This document shows, in pieces, positions 11,307-56,211 of a stretch of 64,000 bases of DNA (position 1 is its first letter; every line of letters starts with the position of its first letter). A model generated the notes under the pieces. That model was given only the letters and a program-made list of their open reading frames with translations, searched no databases and was not told the origin of the DNA. The stretch is from positions 108,879 to 172,878 of IMG/VR virus record IMGVR_UViG_3300005613_000006; one strand, 5' to 3'. A program made the position numbers and the translations under genes. Origin of the DNA: a virus.

Positions 11307-11411
11307 ATATTGCCTACTTTCCAAGACCTAACACTGGATAAGGGTATTTCACCTTACCCAGGGTTTGCCCGAACATGCGTCGCTTATGTACCTTAGCGTA
11401 GAAAGTAAGAG
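11307..11411 (-). other. structured spacer with 10-bp hairpin
   Basis: CTGGGTAAGG/CCTTATCCAG forms a 10-bp hairpin (about 11333-11362), flanked by CTTTC/GAAAG. It lies between tRNA-Gly and tRNA-Lys. No gene. Confidence 0.35.
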
Positions 11412-11483
11412 TGGCTCCCTTCGGACTTGAACCGAAACCTAACGCCTTAAGAGGGCGCAATGCTACATTGACACCAGAGAGCC
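11412..11483 (-). tRNA. tRNA-Lys(CUU)
   Basis: 72 nt. Acceptor GGCUCUC/GGGAGCC, anticodon stem GCGCC/GGCGU with loop CUCUUAA, T arm UUCGG/CCGAA, discriminator A. The HNH gene upstream ends inside its 5' end. Confidence 0.92.
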
Positions 11484-11930
11484 TTTGATTTTACATAAAT
11501 GTTTTTTGTATACCTTTACCAATCCAGCGTGGACTTTACGATGACAGTTAGCACAAATAACTGCGCACTTTCTGATTTCATCAAACACCTTGGGGCTTTT
11601 GTTGCGTGTCATTCGAGACACGCTTTGTTCCTTTTTGGTACTGTCTAGGTGATGAAAGTCTAAACATACAGGCTCGTTCTCACCACATAAACAACAAGTA
11701 TTATCTTGTTTGATGTCGTTGATTCGCTGCACAAACTTTTGCCGTTGTTTAGCAGCCCGAAGCGATGCTCTCTTGTCTTGTTTTTCCAAACGCTGATAAG
11801 AAGCGATAGCACCTTGCTTGGCACAAATTTTACAGTACGAATGTCGGCCATCTTTGGTCGAGGCATTTTTATAGAATTCCGTTAAGGGCTTGGTTGCCCC
11901 ACATTTGCGGCATTGTTTTGATGTTGTCAT
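11463..11930 (-). CDS. HNH homing endonuclease
   Basis: 155 residues. N-terminal zinc finger CRKCG...CKICAKQ, coiled segment, then CCLCGENEPVCLDFHHLDSTKKE...VICANCHRKVH. This CxxC-FHHxD-CANCH arrangement is also found at 32683, 33887, 37760 and 47296. Own TTGGTGTATAAT-type promoter. Overlaps tRNA-Lys(CUU) by 21 bases. Confidence 0.88.
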   Translation of the reverse strand: MTTSKQCRKCGATKPLTEFYKNASTKDGRHSYCKICAKQGAIASYQRLEKQDKRASLRAAKQRQKFVQRINDIKQDNTCCLCGENEPVCLDFHHLDSTKKEQSVSRMTRNKSPKVFDEIRKCAVICANCHRKVHAGLVKVYKKHLCKIKGSLVSM

Positions 11931-12220: not shown

Positions 12221-12482
12221 ATACGCACACGCTAAACTCTACGTCCCAATGGATTACGAACGCAAAACCGTGTGCGTCGATGGCATTCGCCATCCAAAGA
12301 GTCCTGACTGGTTCGCCTTCTGTGTTTATCCCTTGCAGCAACCCATAGGTGTCGCTTCAACTGCAAGGCCCAGTATCTCTCACCGTACATCTCAGGGCTG
12401 TTGCCAACCACGTTCGTCAGCTTACACCCAGGCTTTCGAGGCCCCCATCGGAAGACTACGGACTGCCGTTTTCTGGACTCAG
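12221..12482 (-). ncRNA. structured non-coding segment in tRNA operon
   Basis: About 260 bases between tRNA-Ala and tRNA-Ile with no gene. ACGCACAC pairs with GTGTGCGT (8 bp) near the 3' end, and GATGGC-GAAT-GCCATC is a perfect hairpin. Overlapping open frames run into both tRNAs and lack ribosome sites, so I reject them. Function unknown. Confidence 0.45.
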
Positions 12483-12550
12483 TGGAGCGACGGGGACTCG
12501 AACCCCGCCTCCGACCGTGCAAAGGTCAGGTCTAGCCCTCTAGCCACCCC
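12483..12550 (-). tRNA. tRNA-Ala(UGC), copy 1
   Basis: 68 nt. G3-U70 (the Ala identity pair) is present; anticodon stem UGACC/GGUCG with loop UUUGCAC; T arm CGGGG/CCCCG; discriminator A. First RNA after the promoter at 12572. Confidence 0.88.
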
Positions 12551-12571
12551 TTTTTGCTCGTCGTACAAGGT

Positions 12572-12599
12572 ATTATACACCGGGAATTCGGTTTGTCAA
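12572..12599 (-). promoter_or_regulatory. sigma70-type promoter of the main tRNA operon
   Basis: TTGACA, 16 bases ending GGTG, TATAAT on the minus strand. Expected start is about 15 bases before tRNA-Ala. It probably serves the 9.3-12.5 kb tRNA/structured-RNA array. It overlaps the end of the methyltransferase gene at 12596. Confidence 0.85.
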
Positions 12600-13225
12600 C
12601 CAACTTTTTGAAGATTTTCATGGACAAACCAAGCATCCCAGCCAACTTCCCTCATCCAGGTGTATCCCTTATCCCTCAGAAAAGTGGTAATATCCTCCAA
12701 ATACTTGCGGTCTCGCCCCTCATGGCAGTTGTGTTCCACGGTGATAATTCCAAACACCCAGGTCCAGTCGTAGGATTTCAGAATGTCTAGCTCCGAGCCC
12801 TCTGTGTCGATGGACAGGTAGTTAACGTAGGAAGGAGCGCCGTGTTCGGCCAGGAGGTCATGTAACGTGACGCACGGAATCTCCACTTCCCTCCCAAACT
12901 GCTGTCTTTCTTTCTGATACGGCTGGTCGAGGTCAACAAACTCTGAAATGGTGGAGCAAACACCACCAGAAAAATCAACCTCGGTGAACTTCACGGTTCC
13001 GTTGTGGGTCCACACAGCCCGCTTGTCCCTCTTGCATGTACGCCCGAACTTGTCGTATTGTTCGTCGTTTATCAACGGGTCCACGCAAATTCCTTGCCAC
13101 CCCGCCTCGTCTAACAAAAACGAGTTGCTGAAATGCTCCGCATGGCTTGCGCCGACCTCCACATAGAAGCCCTCGTTCCCTACTTTCTCCAACACGAACT
13201 TGTCCTGTCCTAACTGACTAGGCAT
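12596..13225 (-). CDS. FkbM-family methyltransferase
   Basis: 209 residues. GFYVEVGASHAEHFSNSF at about 19-36 is the SAM loop and YLSIDTEGSELDILKSYD a typical FkbM block. Likely methylates a sugar on a glycan. Overlaps the sulfotransferase gene by 8 bases, so both probably modify the same glycan. Confidence 0.82.
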   Translation of the reverse strand: MPSQLGQDKFVLEKVGNEGFYVEVGASHAEHFSNSFLLDEAGWQGICVDPLINDEQYDKFGRTCKRDKRAVWTHNGTVKFTEVDFSGGVCSTISEFVDLDQPYQKERQQFGREVEIPCVTLHDLLAEHGAPSYVNYLSIDTEGSELDILKSYDWTWVFGIITVEHNCHEGRDRKYLEDITTFLRDKGYTWMREVGWDAWFVHENLQKVG

Positions 13226-21626: not shown

Positions 21627-22004
21627 CTAAGTGTTGCAAAATGATGCAATTTCAGACCTGATATTCCCGTTCGGGTCAATGGCAACAAGGCACCCATCAA
21701 TCTCAGCACGGCGTCTGATTCCTAACAAAGAATAGATTGCCAGCAAAATCTCGATGAAATCCTGACGGCGGGTGACGGTCCACTCATAGAGTGGCTTGTG
21801 GTTACGGTCAGGGTCTCCTTCAACAGGGCCTCGAATATGCCCTATGTCGAACATCATACAACGTCTTACCACATCCTCGTCGGTCATTCGGATACGAAAA
21901 AACACTTTGTTTTTACCGATGTAACCTTCACCCTCCGCTAAACCAGCTAGCCATGCTAGATTGATGGGTGTCCAATGCTGCTTGTCAATGTGTCGATATT
22001 TCAT
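21627..22004 (-). CDS. LAGLIDADG-type endonuclease, single motif
   Basis: 125 residues. LAWLAGLAEGEGYIG at about 17-31 is the LAGLIDADG helix and catalytic acidic residue; only one copy, so it would act as a homodimer. Preceded by the TTTGGTGTATAAT promoter type used by the HNH genes. Confidence 0.75.
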   Translation of the reverse strand: MKYRHIDKQHWTPINLAWLAGLAEGEGYIGKNKVFFRIRMTDEDVVRRCMMFDIGHIRGPVEGDPDRNHKPLYEWTVTRRQDFIEILLAIYSLLGIRRRAEIDGCLVAIDPNGNIRSEIASFCNT

Positions 22005-32682: not shown

Positions 32683-33051
32683 CTATTTTCGTTTGTGTTT
32701 TGCGCGGTCGTCGTCCCACACGTTGCCGTCGTGAATTACCAGATGGCAGTTGGCGCACACTACGTCGCACTTATCAATCTCTGTTTGGATGCGCTGAATA
32801 GATGACCTGTTGTTGACTAAGTGACTAATTTTGTCGTCTTTCTTAGAAGCATCCCGATGATGAAACTGCAAACATTGCCAGCGACCTTCGCCGCACTGCG
32901 TACACTTCACATCATCGCGCTGTTTGTAGGACCGCACATATTGTCTGTTGCGTTCCAATCTGGCCTTGTCACGGGCCTTGTACTCAGCTTTGTTGGCATC
33001 ATAATGACGCCGTTGGGCACTCTTCTGCTCATTTTTGTTTTTGAATGGCAT
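32683..33051 (-). CDS. HNH homing endonuclease
   Basis: 122 residues. Basic N-terminus, then CTQCGEGRWQCLQFHHRDASKKD...VVCANCHLVIH. Start at 33051 follows GGAGG; an upstream ATG would overlap the promoter. Near twin of 47296-47628. Confidence 0.88.
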   Translation of the reverse strand: MPFKNKNEQKSAQRRHYDANKAEYKARDKARLERNRQYVRSYKQRDDVKCTQCGEGRWQCLQFHHRDASKKDDKISHLVNNRSSIQRIQTEIDKCDVVCANCHLVIHDGNVWDDDRAKHKRK

Positions 33052-33069
33052 GGCATATTCCTCCAAGAG

Positions 33070-33081
33070 ATTATACACCAA
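33070..33081 (-). promoter_or_regulatory. TTTGGTGTATAAT promoter for HNH gene
   Basis: 19 bases upstream of the start at 33051. Confidence 0.6.
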
Positions 33082-33885: not shown

Positions 33886-33913
33886 ATTATACACCGCATT
33901 GAGGATAATGCAA
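33886..33913 (-). promoter_or_regulatory. promoter of the 33.1-33.9 kb tRNAs
   Basis: TTGCAT, 16 bases ending GCGGTG, TATAAT. It sits on the last codons of the HNH gene; the -10 is one base from tRNA-Pro. Confidence 0.65.
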
Positions 33914-34354
33914 CTCAGCATGACAATTCTTGCATACTAAATCACACTTATCCAACTCCCTTAGTATTGTTTCAAACTTTCTATGTCTCAGCAATTTCCA
34001 GTCAGGGTCTTTCTTTTGCGGGTCACGATGATGAAAGTCCAACGCCGCGATATTCTTGTTGTAGCCGCAATGAATACACTCGCCCCCTTTGTATTCGATA
34101 GCCTTTTGCTTATAGCTAATGTATCTATCAACCTGTCTGCGAGACCGGCATTTCTTACAAGAAGTAAATCTACCCGCACTAAACTTGGATTTTCTGGTTT
34201 CTCCACAGTGTCGGCATTGATACTTCTTGCGTGTTGTTAACTCAAACTTATTGAGCCAATACCTAATAGTCGTTTGTGAAACGCCGAGAGTTTGTGCAAT
34301 TTGTCTCTGTGTTAAACCCTCTTCTACTAGTTGAGCCAACGTATCTTTGTGCAT
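33887..34354 (-). CDS. HTH-HNH homing endonuclease
   Basis: 155 residues. N-terminal helix-turn-helix (LAQLVEEGLTQRQIAQTLG), zinc finger CRHCG...CKKC, then CIHCGYNKNIAALDFHHRDP...LVCKNCHAELH. Start at 34354; an ATG further upstream would sit in the promoter. Confidence 0.88.
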   Translation of the reverse strand: MHKDTLAQLVEEGLTQRQIAQTLGVSQTTIRYWLNKFELTTRKKYQCRHCGETRKSKFSAGRFTSCKKCRSRRQVDRYISYKQKAIEYKGGECIHCGYNKNIAALDFHHRDPQKKDPDWKLLRHRKFETILRELDKCDLVCKNCHAELHYPQCGV

Positions 34355-34375
34355 AACATAGCTCCTTTCTACTAT

Positions 34376-34387
34376 ATTATACACCAT
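34376..34387 (-). promoter_or_regulatory. TGGTGTATAAT promoter for HNH gene
   Basis: 22 bases upstream of 34354, with the shared TATAATATAGTAG downstream context. Confidence 0.6.
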
Positions 34388-36820: not shown

Positions 36821-36909
36821 TGGGAGATAAGGGAATTGAACCCCCTGGCCGACCACCTAGCATCTTATAAGGCCATCTGATTTACAGTCAGACGCTAGGA
36901 ATACCTCCC
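36821..36909 (-). tRNA. tRNA-Tyr(GUA) without a D hairpin
   Basis: 89 nt. Acceptor GGGAGGU/AUCUCCC, anticodon stem UCUGA/UCAGA with loop CUGUAAA, long variable arm UGGCC/GGCCA, discriminator A. Only 10 nt separate acceptor and anticodon arm, so no D hairpin fits; CCUAGC there is complementary to GCUAGG in the variable-arm loop. Confidence 0.75.
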
Positions 36910-37295
36910 GTTTTATATTGTTGATACTTCTTGCCTAGATTGATGCGATTTACACATTTTACAATACTTGTCGGTATTGAATATGAATCACCATTATCAC
37001 ATAAAACAAAAAGTAGGTCAACTTGTTTTGGGTTGAACTTCTTGACTACTCCACCCCAACTTTGATTGCCTCCGCAGACCCTCAAGCCCGCTGAGTATAC
37101 TCCGTATGGAGTTTGTGATGCCGTAGACTTGACTTGCACCTTGTTAAGTTTCTTACCGTCGTCAACAATCAAGTCATAGTCTTGGCTATCAGTGAGAGGA
37201 ATACACACTGTATAACCTTGTTGGGTGTAGTATGCAATCGCAGCACCTAACCCAACGTCACCTTGCTGCTTACTGTTTTTGGTATTCTCAAACAT
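36888..37295 (-). CDS. PD-(D/E)XK homing-type endonuclease
   Basis: 135 residues. QGDVGLGAAIAYYTQQGYTVCIPLTDSQDYDLIVDDGKKLNKVQVKST gives the catalytic D...QVK core. Paralog of 29547-29930. The last seven codons lie in tRNA-Tyr. Confidence 0.78.
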   Translation of the reverse strand: MFENTKNSKQQGDVGLGAAIAYYTQQGYTVCIPLTDSQDYDLIVDDGKKLNKVQVKSTASQTPYGVYSAGLRVCGGNQSWGGVVKKFNPKQVDLLFVLCDNGDSYSIPTSIVKCVNRINLGKKYQQYKTGGIPSV

Positions 37296-37635: not shown

Positions 37636-37701
37636 ATGTTTTGGATGGTAGCCCTTTCAATGCTACTTTTAGGGTACGGCCTCACGGCAGGCACATCCAA
37701 G

Positions 37702-37774
37702 CACCGGGTAGAGGACTCGAACCTCAAACTAGCGGTTTAACAGACAGCCGTGCTACCTATTACACCAGCCCGGT
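37702..37774 (-). tRNA. tRNA-Asn(GUU)
   Basis: 73 nt. Acceptor ACCGGGC/ACCCGGU, anticodon loop CUGUUAA, T arm with UUCGAGU, discriminator G as in Asn. Between it and tRNA-Glu a UUGGAUG/CAUCCAA stem closes a 66-nt spacer. Confidence 0.88.
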
Positions 37775-38185
37775 ATGTTTTTTCACTCTGTCAATCAATT
37801 TCTGAGGGACTTCCACTATACCCTCTTCAACTTCCGCATGGTAGTTGCTACAGACTAAGATGCACTTCCTAGCTTCTGCTAATGCTCTGTCCCAACCTCG
37901 GGTCTGCCCTCCCATTGACAATCCAAACTCTTTTGTCTCTGGAAAAACGTGATGAAACCCCAACGCCCGCTCACATTTATCATAGCCACATAGTTCGCAT
38001 TGTCCCCCAAAGTGTTTAACCAGCTTCGGCTTGAGATTCTTGCGATACCGAGCAACCTTTTCCACCCGACACTTCTTGCAACGAAAGGTGCTTCCCTCTG
38101 CCACATGCTCAGTCAGGCCGTGCTTCTTACATTGGAAAAAAGGCGACAAGTTAGTTGGCCGACATTTCTTGATATTTGGAATCAT
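37760..38185 (-). CDS. HNH homing endonuclease
   Basis: 141 residues. CKKHGLTEHVAEGSTFRCKKCRVEKVARYRK zinc domain, CELCGYDKCERALGFHHVFPETKEFG...ILVCSNYHAEV HNH core; the usual second Cys of CxxC..H is Tyr here (CSNYH). Overlaps tRNA-Asn at its 3' end and Y-like RNA 4 at its 5' end. Confidence 0.82.
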   Translation of the reverse strand: MIPNIKKCRPTNLSPFFQCKKHGLTEHVAEGSTFRCKKCRVEKVARYRKNLKPKLVKHFGGQCELCGYDKCERALGFHHVFPETKEFGLSMGGQTRGWDRALAEARKCILVCSNYHAEVEEGIVEVPQKLIDRVKKHTGLV

Positions 38186-41777: not shown

Positions 41778-42022
41778 AGTCTCTCTCTTTGAGGTAGGAG
41801 TCAGTGGACGGCGCGGGAATTGAACCCGCGTCCTGCGATACCTCCAAAGCAAACGTCTACGTGTGTAGTTTGTTGTTAGGCTGCACAACAAACAAAGCTG
41901 TCTCGATGGTGGATATGCCTCTTGTTTTTTTAGGCACAAGAATAAGCCGTCCCGCGCTTGCCGTTAGGCTGCGCAGGCCAGAATGCCGTTATACTCGGCA
42001 GTTAAATTTGGTAGTCGATTTT

Positions 42023-42517
42023 TTATACACGATTCGCTTTTAAGTATTGGATTGCATTTTGTAGCAGGGCAATATCGTCCTGTAAAAAACCAATCCCGCG
42101 ATTGCATTTGTTACACAACAGACCTCGTATTTGTCCAGTCTGGTGGCAATGGTCTATTGCTAGTTTGCAATCTTTACCATGTCCAACTTCAACTCCACAG
42201 ATTTGACATTGTTCACCGAATTTTGAAACAAGTTCTTCATATTGCGCAAGCGACTGAGCATCTAAGTGTATGCAATGATTACATTGATACTTGCCGTTGC
42301 TCAATAATTGTGGAAAGTTTGACAATGGTAATAGTTTGCCACAGTTTTTACATGTGGCCTTGCCGTTTTTTGTATTCTTGGTTTTCGGTTTGTGCAAACC
42401 AAGATTAACGGCTTTGTAACGCAAGGTGGTATAGTTCATGCCAAGCTGACGAGCAGCTTTTCTTAAAGACATTCCACTTTTCACCAAGTTTACAATCTGT
42501 TGTTCAACTTCGGTCAT
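42023..42517 (-). CDS. endonuclease VII-like homing nuclease inside tmRNA
   Basis: 164 residues. N-terminal helix-turn-helix (MSLRKAARQLGMNYTTLRY), zinc finger CKNCG...CNHC, then CQICGVEVGHGKDCKLAIDHCHQTGQIRGLLCNKCNRGIG, the recombination endonuclease VII motif. Start at 42517 after GGAGG. Its 3' codons include one arm of the inverted repeat. Paralog at 55588. Confidence 0.85.
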   Translation of the reverse strand: MTEVEQQIVNLVKSGMSLRKAARQLGMNYTTLRYKAVNLGLHKPKTKNTKNGKATCKNCGKLLPLSNFPQLLSNGKYQCNHCIHLDAQSLAQYEELVSKFGEQCQICGVEVGHGKDCKLAIDHCHQTGQIRGLLCNKCNRGIGFLQDDIALLQNAIQYLKANRV

Positions 42518-42535
42518 TGGTGTTTCCTCCCTATT

Positions 42536-42545
42536 ATTATACACC
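42536..42545 (-). promoter_or_regulatory. TGGTGTATAAT promoter
   Basis: 19 bases upstream of the tmRNA-resident endonuclease start. Confidence 0.55.
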
Positions 42546-42659
42546 AGAACTGACCAAAATCGACCAATGCTTAAAAGCGAATCGTGTAACCGTGGCCCTT
42601 CGACCAACCACGACACGCGGTTCACAGCATCAGCACCCAGTCGAAACCTAAATGCCGCC

Positions 42660-42992
42660 CTAAACACTGTCTAACAAAGCAGCGACTTCCTCAACTGTCG
42701 CCTCGGCTCCTGTATGTAAGATTGCGTCAACAACCTTGCCTCCATGTAGTCTAAACTCACGGAAGCCCATTTCTCGCCTAACACGACGAGCTAACGCCCG
42801 CTTCTCCAACCATGTTGGATTTTGTGCCATGAAAGATACCTCTTCTGAGGACTTACGGCAGCGGTCGCGAATCAGTGGAATCAAACCAATAGCAACTTCG
42901 GTAAGCAATAGCAAGAGCGCGGCGCTCAGTGCCACATTTTGCTCACCCGGTAGATTCAGAACTGTTCTCTCAGCAAAGTCTTCTGGTGTCAT
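42660..42992 (-). CDS. hypothetical protein with one membrane helix
   Basis: 110 residues. Hydrophobic segment at about 19-40 (VALSAALLLLLTEVAIGLIP), basic middle, helical end. Its TAG stop shares its G with the tmRNA 5' end. Confidence 0.6.
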   Translation of the reverse strand: MTPEDFAERTVLNLPGEQNVALSAALLLLLTEVAIGLIPLIRDRCRKSSEEVSFMAQNPTWLEKRALARRVRREMGFREFRLHGGKVVDAILHTGAEATVEEVAALLDSV

Positions 42993-43166: not shown

Positions 43167-43364
43167 CTAATCCTTCTGGATTTCGCTGCCGATTTCCTTT
43201 ACTTCATCCTCGACTTCCTTGAACCCCTTCTTGAAGGAGGGTATCGCCTGCCCCACTGAACGGGCAACTTTTGGAAGCTGCGAGCCGAACAAGAGGACGG
43301 CCACGATGCCGATAATGACAAGTTCAAAGGGTCCAGGGGTGAAAAAAGCAAACAGACTACTCAT
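43167..43364 (-). CDS. tatA: TatA-like twin-arginine translocase subunit
   Basis: 65 residues. N-terminal membrane helix (FELVIIGIVAVLLFG, about 11-25), the FGSQLPKVARSVG hinge, and an amphipathic helix with acidic Lys-rich tail (FKKGFKEVEDEVKEI). All TatA hallmarks. No TatC in the window, so it would work with the host TatC, possibly to export the RR-leader protein at 25557. Confidence 0.9.
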   Translation of the reverse strand: MSSLFAFFTPGPFELVIIGIVAVLLFGSQLPKVARSVGQAIPSFKKGFKEVEDEVKEIGSEIQKD

Positions 43365-43962
43365 TGGATACCTCCCAATCGGGAACATAGTTCATGGACT
43401 CTTCGACGGTGACCTTTGGCACCATTTGAGTATAATCGAAGAACATCCAACGTCTTAATGTATCGCACTCTGGTGCTGTGTGTACCAAGTATAGATACGT
43501 CTTGATTTCATCCCAACTACCAAAAAGGTGGCAGTGTGGAAATGTCCCAACCAACCAGTCGGGAACTTGTTTCTTTCCTCCCTCAATATGAATCAGCGTC
43601 GGGTTCTTTAAGCGATTGCCCCAGAACGCTTCTTCATACGTACCACAGGCATGAACCTCAGGGTCAATGTTGACTATCAGGAAGTCAGACATATCCACCA
43701 TGCGAAGGTCTACAACTCGTAGTAACTTGATTTCTTTAGCAAGTGTTTCCCACTGGCCTATTTCCTTTAGGTGCCGCCTACGGTTTCTGTCCTCAATTCC
43801 CTCAAGTCCAATACTAATAGGCTTTCTGGTTGGGTCTAAAACCACAATACCCAACTTATCCAAAAAAGGTGTTATGTCTCGTCGCCATCCTACGCCGTGG
43901 TCAAGAGCCCGGTCCATTGCTCCGATGAGGTAGCAGCGCATCCCCCAAAGTCTGTGATTCAT
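43357..43962 (-). CDS. nucleoside 2-deoxyribosyltransferase-like protein
   Basis: 201 residues. CYLIGAMDRALDHGVGWRRDI, DMSDFLIVNIDPEVHACGTYEEAFWG and the following strand match the nucleoside deoxyribosyltransferase-like fold common in phages, probably acting on nucleotides. Overlaps tatA by 8 bases. Confidence 0.7.
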   Translation of the reverse strand: MNHRLWGMRCYLIGAMDRALDHGVGWRRDITPFLDKLGIVVLDPTRKPISIGLEGIEDRNRRRHLKEIGQWETLAKEIKLLRVVDLRMVDMSDFLIVNIDPEVHACGTYEEAFWGNRLKNPTLIHIEGGKKQVPDWLVGTFPHCHLFGSWDEIKTYLYLVHTAPECDTLRRWMFFDYTQMVPKVTVEESMNYVPDWEVSNE

Positions 43963-55587: not shown

Positions 55588-56211
55588 TTAATCTTCCTCC
55601 AAATAATCAATAAGTTTTTGCAATATATCACTATCATCATTACAATGACCCAGTGTTACATTACATCTAAAACAGAGCAAGCCTCTTATTTTACCAGTTT
55701 GGTGTGAATGGTCCACAGCAAATCTTGTTCGATTGTTACCTGGATTATTGGCCCCACAACATGCACATTTGCCATTTTGCCGTTTTAACAGATTTTCGTA
55801 CTCTCGTAGGGTAATGCCAAATTCATGTTGTAATTGTATATCCGTCTTACAATCTTTACAACAAGCATGAAGACCATCTTTGGTATATCTATCCTTACCA
55901 AACATATCCACCGTTTTCATTTCAAGACACCTAGAACATTTTTTGAAACCATTACTTGCCAAAGTTCCTTTTCTAAATCTAACTTTGACCAGCTTCTTCA
56001 ATAAACATCCACATGATTGAATTCTTCCTTGTTTGACTTCATAACAACCAAGTTCTTTTAGATTACCACATTCACATCGAAACATGGCATGTTGTAATCT
56101 CCGATTGGTGTCCTTGTATCTCACATAAAATGGTTCACCTTCTACTGTAAGCATTCCAAACTTGTCGCCGGGGTGTACTGACCATCGTTCTTTCGGTATA
56201 GGTTCTGACAT
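55588..56211 (-). CDS. endonuclease VII-like nuclease
   Basis: 207 residues. N-terminal zinc-ribbon (FRCECGN...SCGC), second zinc pair (CSRC...CKDC), then CACCGANNPGNNRTRFAVDHSHQTGKIRGLLCFRCNVTLG, the endonuclease VII core as at 42023. AT-rich, own promoter; ends one base before the rIIA start, so apparently inserted ahead of rIIA. Confidence 0.85.
   Translation of the reverse strand: MSEPIPKERWSVHPGDKFGMLTVEGEPFYVRYKDTNRRLQHAMFRCECGNLKELGCYEVKQGRIQSCGCLLKKLVKVRFRKGTLASNGFKKCSRCLEMKTVDMFGKDRYTKDGLHACCKDCKTDIQLQHEFGITLREYENLLKRQNGKCACCGANNPGNNRTRFAVDHSHQTGKIRGLLCFRCNVTLGHCNDDSDILQKLIDYLEED

Follow-up and report, generated by a model that had tools for sequence, protein, structure and literature searches.

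Can the gene of a transfer-messenger RNA (tmRNA), which frees ribosomes that have stalled, carry an endonuclease gene in its middle and still give a usable RNA? This question was raised by an earlier note on a stretch of phage DNA, in which a tmRNA gene appeared to be split by an endonuclease VII-like gene. The window that we analysed is this stretch of 64,000 nucleotides (nt), bases 108879-172878 of the virus record IMGVR_UViG_3300005613_000006 (172,878 base pairs (bp) in total), and it contains many tRNA genes and homologues of RIIA and RIIB. We found that the locus at 42660-41805 is a tmRNA gene, which lies on the minus strand in the standard 5'-to-3' order and is interrupted by 563 nt (42588-42026) in the third loop of pseudoknot 1 (PK1), between its 3' strands. 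We consider it probable that the interruption is an intervening-sequence-like insertion of a homing gene, and that the tmRNA stays usable, most likely as two pieces after cleavage by RNase III.

The tmRNA reads GGGCGGC...GGTTTCGACTGGG from its 5' end at 42660, which shares one base with the stop codon of the upstream open reading frame (ORF), and it closes with GCCGTCC and an A at 41812-41805, the CCA not being encoded. As had been proposed, these two ends form a single acceptor stem (7 of 7 pairs) with a G3-U70 pair (G42658-U41808), and with the TTCGAC 5' motif, the T-arm and an intact T-loop they make up a tRNA-like domain. The tag frame of 11 codons, with its resume context and stop, also lies where the earlier note had placed it, just past the inverted repeat that bounds the insert. 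Both PK1 and helix P2 pair as they do in relatives. ARAGORN made no call on the intact 886 nt; every joined version free of the insert was called as a tmRNA with the AEYNGILACAA tag, and 0 of 300 shuffled controls were called. The Rfam model RF00023 found only the 3' part of the interrupted sequence (36.3 bits, E=1e-12), under a cut-off of 47 that was made for uninterrupted genes.

When the joined sequence was aligned with 16 phage tmRNAs, 98.3% of the cells in P2d, stems S1 and S2 of PK1 and the T-stem were paired, and two-sided changes were seen in 27 cells (7.1 expected from shuffles). Acceptor columns 4 and 424 were both altered in the window, with pairing restored. These comparisons indicated a tmRNA without visible decay. 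A complete tmRNA elsewhere in the genome would have spoken against this assignment, and a search with Rfam found no second one in the 172,878-bp record. An ARAGORN 'tmRNA' at 12482-12894 (tag GGYYHFSEG) has a 3' end in common with a tRNA-Ala call, and it reached only 13.4 bits with RF00023; it is probably a false positive.

Uninterrupted relatives, which the earlier note had wished to see for the definition of the insertion site, came from IMG/VR, where three designs of DNA pattern were used, and from a single scan across bacterial genomes, and were judged by ARAGORN and by eye; several loci end too near the pattern to be read. Most of them have the same PK1, with the consensus GCGTGTCGTGG-TT-GRTCGN...GGCCACG-TTAAAA-GTCGAYYA, and in all readable relatives (about 60 phage and about 60 bacterial tmRNAs) a short linker rich in A, most often TTAAAA, forms the third loop. 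The window reads GCGTGTCGTGG-TT-GGTCGA-AGGG-CCACG-GT, then the 563 nt, then TAAAAAA-TCGACT. Comparison with this empty site thus confines the insert to the third loop of PK1. No other interrupted tmRNA was present among the readable phage and bacterial loci.

Two further observations were made on these relatives. The bacteria with the same PK1 motif (L095-L174) are mostly Planctomycetota and Verrucomicrobiota, which may point weakly to the type of host. In a phage contig of 527,112 bp (L059), a standard tmRNA was missed by ARAGORN, with GTGTAGTGG replacing GTGTCGTGG.

The insert holds the endonuclease cassette with a promoter-like motif of phage type that had been described between the tmRNA ends. 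The motif, GGTGTATAAT, occurs in 21 copies in the window, mostly ahead of genes, where we estimate that about 0.1 would be expected by chance; a consensus scan found no -35 match at the copy in the insert. The insert also has a ribosome-binding site for the ORF. The ORF matched PF02945 (E=3.9e-19) and the PHROG endonuclease VII families, and the nearest solved chain was Hpy99I. Its catalytic set of CX2C, DHxH, R and CX2C-N is complete and C-terminal (CQIC, DHCH, R, CNKC-N), in agreement with the motif of DHHRN homing endonucleases (CX2-4C, DHxH, R, CX2C and N at the C-terminus). A C-terminal motif is that of the endonuclease clade, not of the resolvase clade, of the Endonuclease VII-type family (PMC6083498).

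The inverted repeat around the cassette had been described as 18 bases long. We observed that it is present and longer, with 24 of 25 nt paired and a duplex energy of -33.5 kcal/mol. With a score of 22 it is the best inverted repeat in the 64 kb at a spacing of 100-2000 nt, the runner-up scoring 14, and exact pairing between the two flank regions runs for up to 19 nt, where 300 shuffles gave no more than 11. In the full RNA the outer 18-19 pairs have a pair probability of about 1.0, which agrees with the earlier suggestion that the repeat folds the insert away, and the whole RNA folds 7.9 standard deviations better than shuffles (z -7.9). A second pairing, GTCGATTTT/AAAATCGAC, with the repeated TTGGTCGA, was considered as an alternative pseudoknot and rejected: for geometric reasons it can scarcely form alongside the 25-bp stem, and such matches of 8-9 nt are expected by chance in 900 nt.

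We also evaluated 23 other endonuclease cassettes, 13 of them homologous and from other phages (several near-identical to each other) and 10 others of the same phage. Their best comparable repeats scored 6-12, as against 22 here, so the seal is particular to the copy inside a structured RNA; this suggests that it arose, or was kept, because it allowed the tmRNA to fold. The homologue L005 ends ...LLQNAIQYLKNANAR and the window ORF ends LLQNAIQYLKANRV. The 3' arm thus belongs to the normal coding sequence, and it was probably the 5' arm that was acquired after insertion, sealing the insert. Such an arm could also be a by-product of DNA repair with no role in the RNA, since template switching can make a reverse complement of the 3' end of the ORF, and this is what the 5' arm is. 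However, the arms lie exactly at both edges of the host loop and reseal it, and the other cassettes are without such a repeat. We regard this origin, which concerns the stem only and is compatible with the other readings, as improbable.

The same comparison bears on whether a recent endonuclease insertion simply killed the tmRNA gene, leaving signals that are relics before decay. Host tmRNA would serve the phage anyway, constraint is not measurable in a single genome, and the insert has its own promoter motif and a differing base composition (39.6% G+C, against 61% and 49% in the tmRNA halves). Yet every key tmRNA feature is intact and one acceptor pair is compensatory, and a dead gene would not need a sealing stem of a kind missing from the 23 other cassettes. 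We consider a dead gene unlikely.

Three precedents led us to favour a tmRNA that is cut by RNase III into two pieces. Coxiella 23S rRNA contains an intervening sequence (IVS) of 428-444 nt, which includes an ORF and is closed by a 28-bp terminal stem that is perfect but for one mismatch and a bulge; RNase III cleaves this IVS, and the fragmented rRNA is functional (PMC4990558). PK1 of Escherichia coli tmRNA can be replaced by a hairpin or a single strand with tagging kept (PMC4236655), and phage genes split by homing endonucleases keep their function, as is known for proteins (PMC2988022). By this account, the endonuclease gene would have entered the PK1 loop by intronless homing or transposition, and the 5' arm would then have turned complementary to the 3' end of the endonuclease gene. 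With the insert extruded as a hairpin, PK1, P2 and the tRNA-like domain would still be able to form. Host RNase III would most likely cut the stem, as in the 23S rRNA intervening sequences, and the two-piece tmRNA would be held by the acceptor stem, P2 and PK1, the fallback being an RNA that stays uncut and bears the insert as a large side hairpin. The ORF would be translated from its own promoter. A folded insert, RNase cleavage and a two-piece RNA, one side of an either-or in the earlier note, is the best-supported proposal for the mechanism.

That fallback may be the whole of the matter, with the insert never removed and a single RNA of about 860 nt working while the endonuclease gene projects from PK1 as a large side hairpin. 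With the stem closed, about 9 nt of effective loop remain (GT and TAAAAAA), against 6 in relatives, so PK1 could form, and E. coli tmRNA tolerates drastic change in PK1 (PMC4236655). A near-perfect 25-bp stem is, however, a typical RNase III substrate, and ribosomes that translate the ORF would open the stem again and again, blocking the RNA. An RNA that works uncut is a less probable alternative.

Several points weigh against cleavage to a usable two-piece RNA. Both the RNase III step and the retained function are argued from analogy and from sequence. The product of the ORF is homing-endonuclease-like, of the DHHRN (Endonuclease VII-type) kind, with an activity predicted from its motifs. In the full-length minimum-energy fold computed without pseudoknots, stem S1 of PK1 has a probability of 0. 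Neither SmpB nor RNase III was detectable among the phage-encoded proteins, and host proteins would be needed. Finally, with one genome only, selection on the tmRNA halves or on the stem would be beyond measurement, as no close relatives of the phage turned up among the records of GenBank phages and IMG/VR that were open to search. The AAA ATPase and the phrog_850 protein, used as protein queries, gave zero close relatives, the RIIA protein had no match in 20 phage records bearing tmRNA, and a tag-based DNA pattern gave one match only, a chance one inside a coding gene.

An RNA ligase of PF09414 and RtcB were likewise not found in the record, whereas the search with PF09511 was silent along with its control and is uninformative. 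These negatives suggest that host proteins would act and that religation is unlikely. They bear on the other side of the earlier either-or, read here as a tmRNA that matures in one piece, whether the insert is an intron that escaped recognition or the pieces are rejoined by an RNA ligase. In tmRNA genes, group I introns that carry homing endonuclease genes are known, but only in the T-loop (PMC11915505). The site here is a different one, there is no match to group I or group II families of Rfam, and only 71 nt of the insert precede the ORF. We consider a spliced or religated product very improbable.

Features of the interrupted tmRNA gene (window positions)
Feature	Position (strand)	Sequence	Parts and basis
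tmRNA 5' half	42589..42660 (-)	GGTTTCGACTGGG	Acceptor 5' strand 42660-42654; the GGTTTCGACTGGG element, which is part of this half; P2 5' strand; PK1 S1 5' 42612-42608, S2 5' 42605-42600, S1 3' 42595-42591
5' arm of inverted repeat	42564..42588 (-)	TACACGATTCGCTTTTAAGCATTGG	
Promoter-like motif	42536..42545 (-)	GGTGTATAAT	In insert; motif count in window
ORF, 164 amino acids	42023..42517 (-)		N-terminal helix-turn-helix (HTH); C-terminal Endonuclease VII (DHHRN) domain
3' arm of inverted repeat	42026..42050 (-)	CCAATACTTAAAAGCGAATCGTGTA	Doubles as coding end of ORF
tmRNA 3' half	41805..42025 (-)		A-run; PK1 S2 3' strand 42018-42013; tag; further pseudoknots; P2 3' strand; T-arm; acceptor 3' strand 41812-41806; discriminator A41805
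Tag reading frame AEYNGILACAA*	41999-41964 (-)	GCC GAG TAT AAC GGC ATT CTG GCC TGC GCA GCC TAA	ARAGORN

Other endonuclease cassettes of the phage (HNH-type or similar), at 11463-11930, 21627-22004, 32683-33081, 33887-34387, 36888-37295 and 37760-38185, adjoin or overlap tRNA genes, and most have GGTGTATAAT in front. The ORF at 11463-11930 overlaps tRNA-Lys (11411-11483) and that at 37760-38185 overlaps tRNA-Asn (37701-37774); tRNA genes may be the homing sites of these cassettes. A second Endonuclease VII-type gene (89 bits, 55588-56211) lies directly upstream of rIIA, outside RNA genes and without a strong inverted repeat. Elsewhere in the window, the phage encodes a TatA-like protein (43167-43388; PF02416, E=6e-12), which is unusual in a phage, and the segment 37464-37563, between two tRNA genes, scored 47 bits with the wcaG RNA family (RF01761, cut-off 42).

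If the favoured explanation is true, a selfish endonuclease gene can inhabit a small, highly structured functional RNA without an intron, by way of a sealing stem. Since this form of the gene was missed by ARAGORN and scored below the Rfam cut-off, further cases may be hidden. The locus also opens a direct test of the extent to which PK1 is required in a natural tmRNA, and of the way in which RNA folding alone makes mobile genes tolerable.

Among known systems, the tmRNA genes themselves come first. A 2025 survey of 97,179 tmRNA sequences described standard, T-loop group I intron and permuted forms, and its authors noted that introns located elsewhere may have escaped their search (PMC11915505); Rickettsial palindromic elements have been reported within tmRNA (PMC2229807). 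We found no report in the open-licence literature of an endonuclease cassette in PK1 of a tmRNA, and a tmRNA with an intervening-sequence-like homing gene thus appears to be absent from the forms described there. We tentatively suggest, at odds of slightly under even, a fourth gene form, in which two pieces arise by an IVS mechanism, the break falls in PK1 before the tag, and the 3' half may be transcribed separately from the endonuclease promoter. Like the group I intron genes, some of which carry LAGLIDADG genes, it has an interrupting element able to carry a homing endonuclease gene; theirs, however, is self-splicing and sits in the T-loop, whereas the present one is in loop 3 of PK1 and has no intron match. 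It would likewise resemble the permuted genes in giving two base-paired RNA pieces, but its order is standard, the 3' part is not encoded first, and the break precedes the tag, in PK1.

Aeh1 nrdA/mobE and T4 gene 60/mobA also have a homing endonuclease gene in a phage gene whose function is likely kept in pieces; there proteins are split, and here a non-coding RNA, with a sealing stem. The ORF shares the C-terminal Endonuclease VII motif and all catalytic residues with the DHHRN family and its free-standing phage enzyme F-CphI, differing in its N-terminal HTH and in that its endonuclease function is predicted from motifs. The nearest likeness is to the 23S rRNA intervening sequences of Coxiella burnetii, Salmonella and Leptospira, which are ORF-bearing inserts, 400-600 nt in length, that occupy a peripheral loop of a structured and essential RNA, are closed by a 25-28 bp terminal stem with one mismatch, and lack an intron core. 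The present locus likewise has a loop that tolerates an insert, and terminal inverted repeats that form a long stem. Its host RNA is a phage tmRNA and not 23S or 16S rRNA, and its ORF, which has a promoter motif and a ribosome-binding site of its own, is of the Endonuclease VII type and not S23p. We would therefore call its working IVS-like, with a presumed RNase III step, rather than class it as an IVS.
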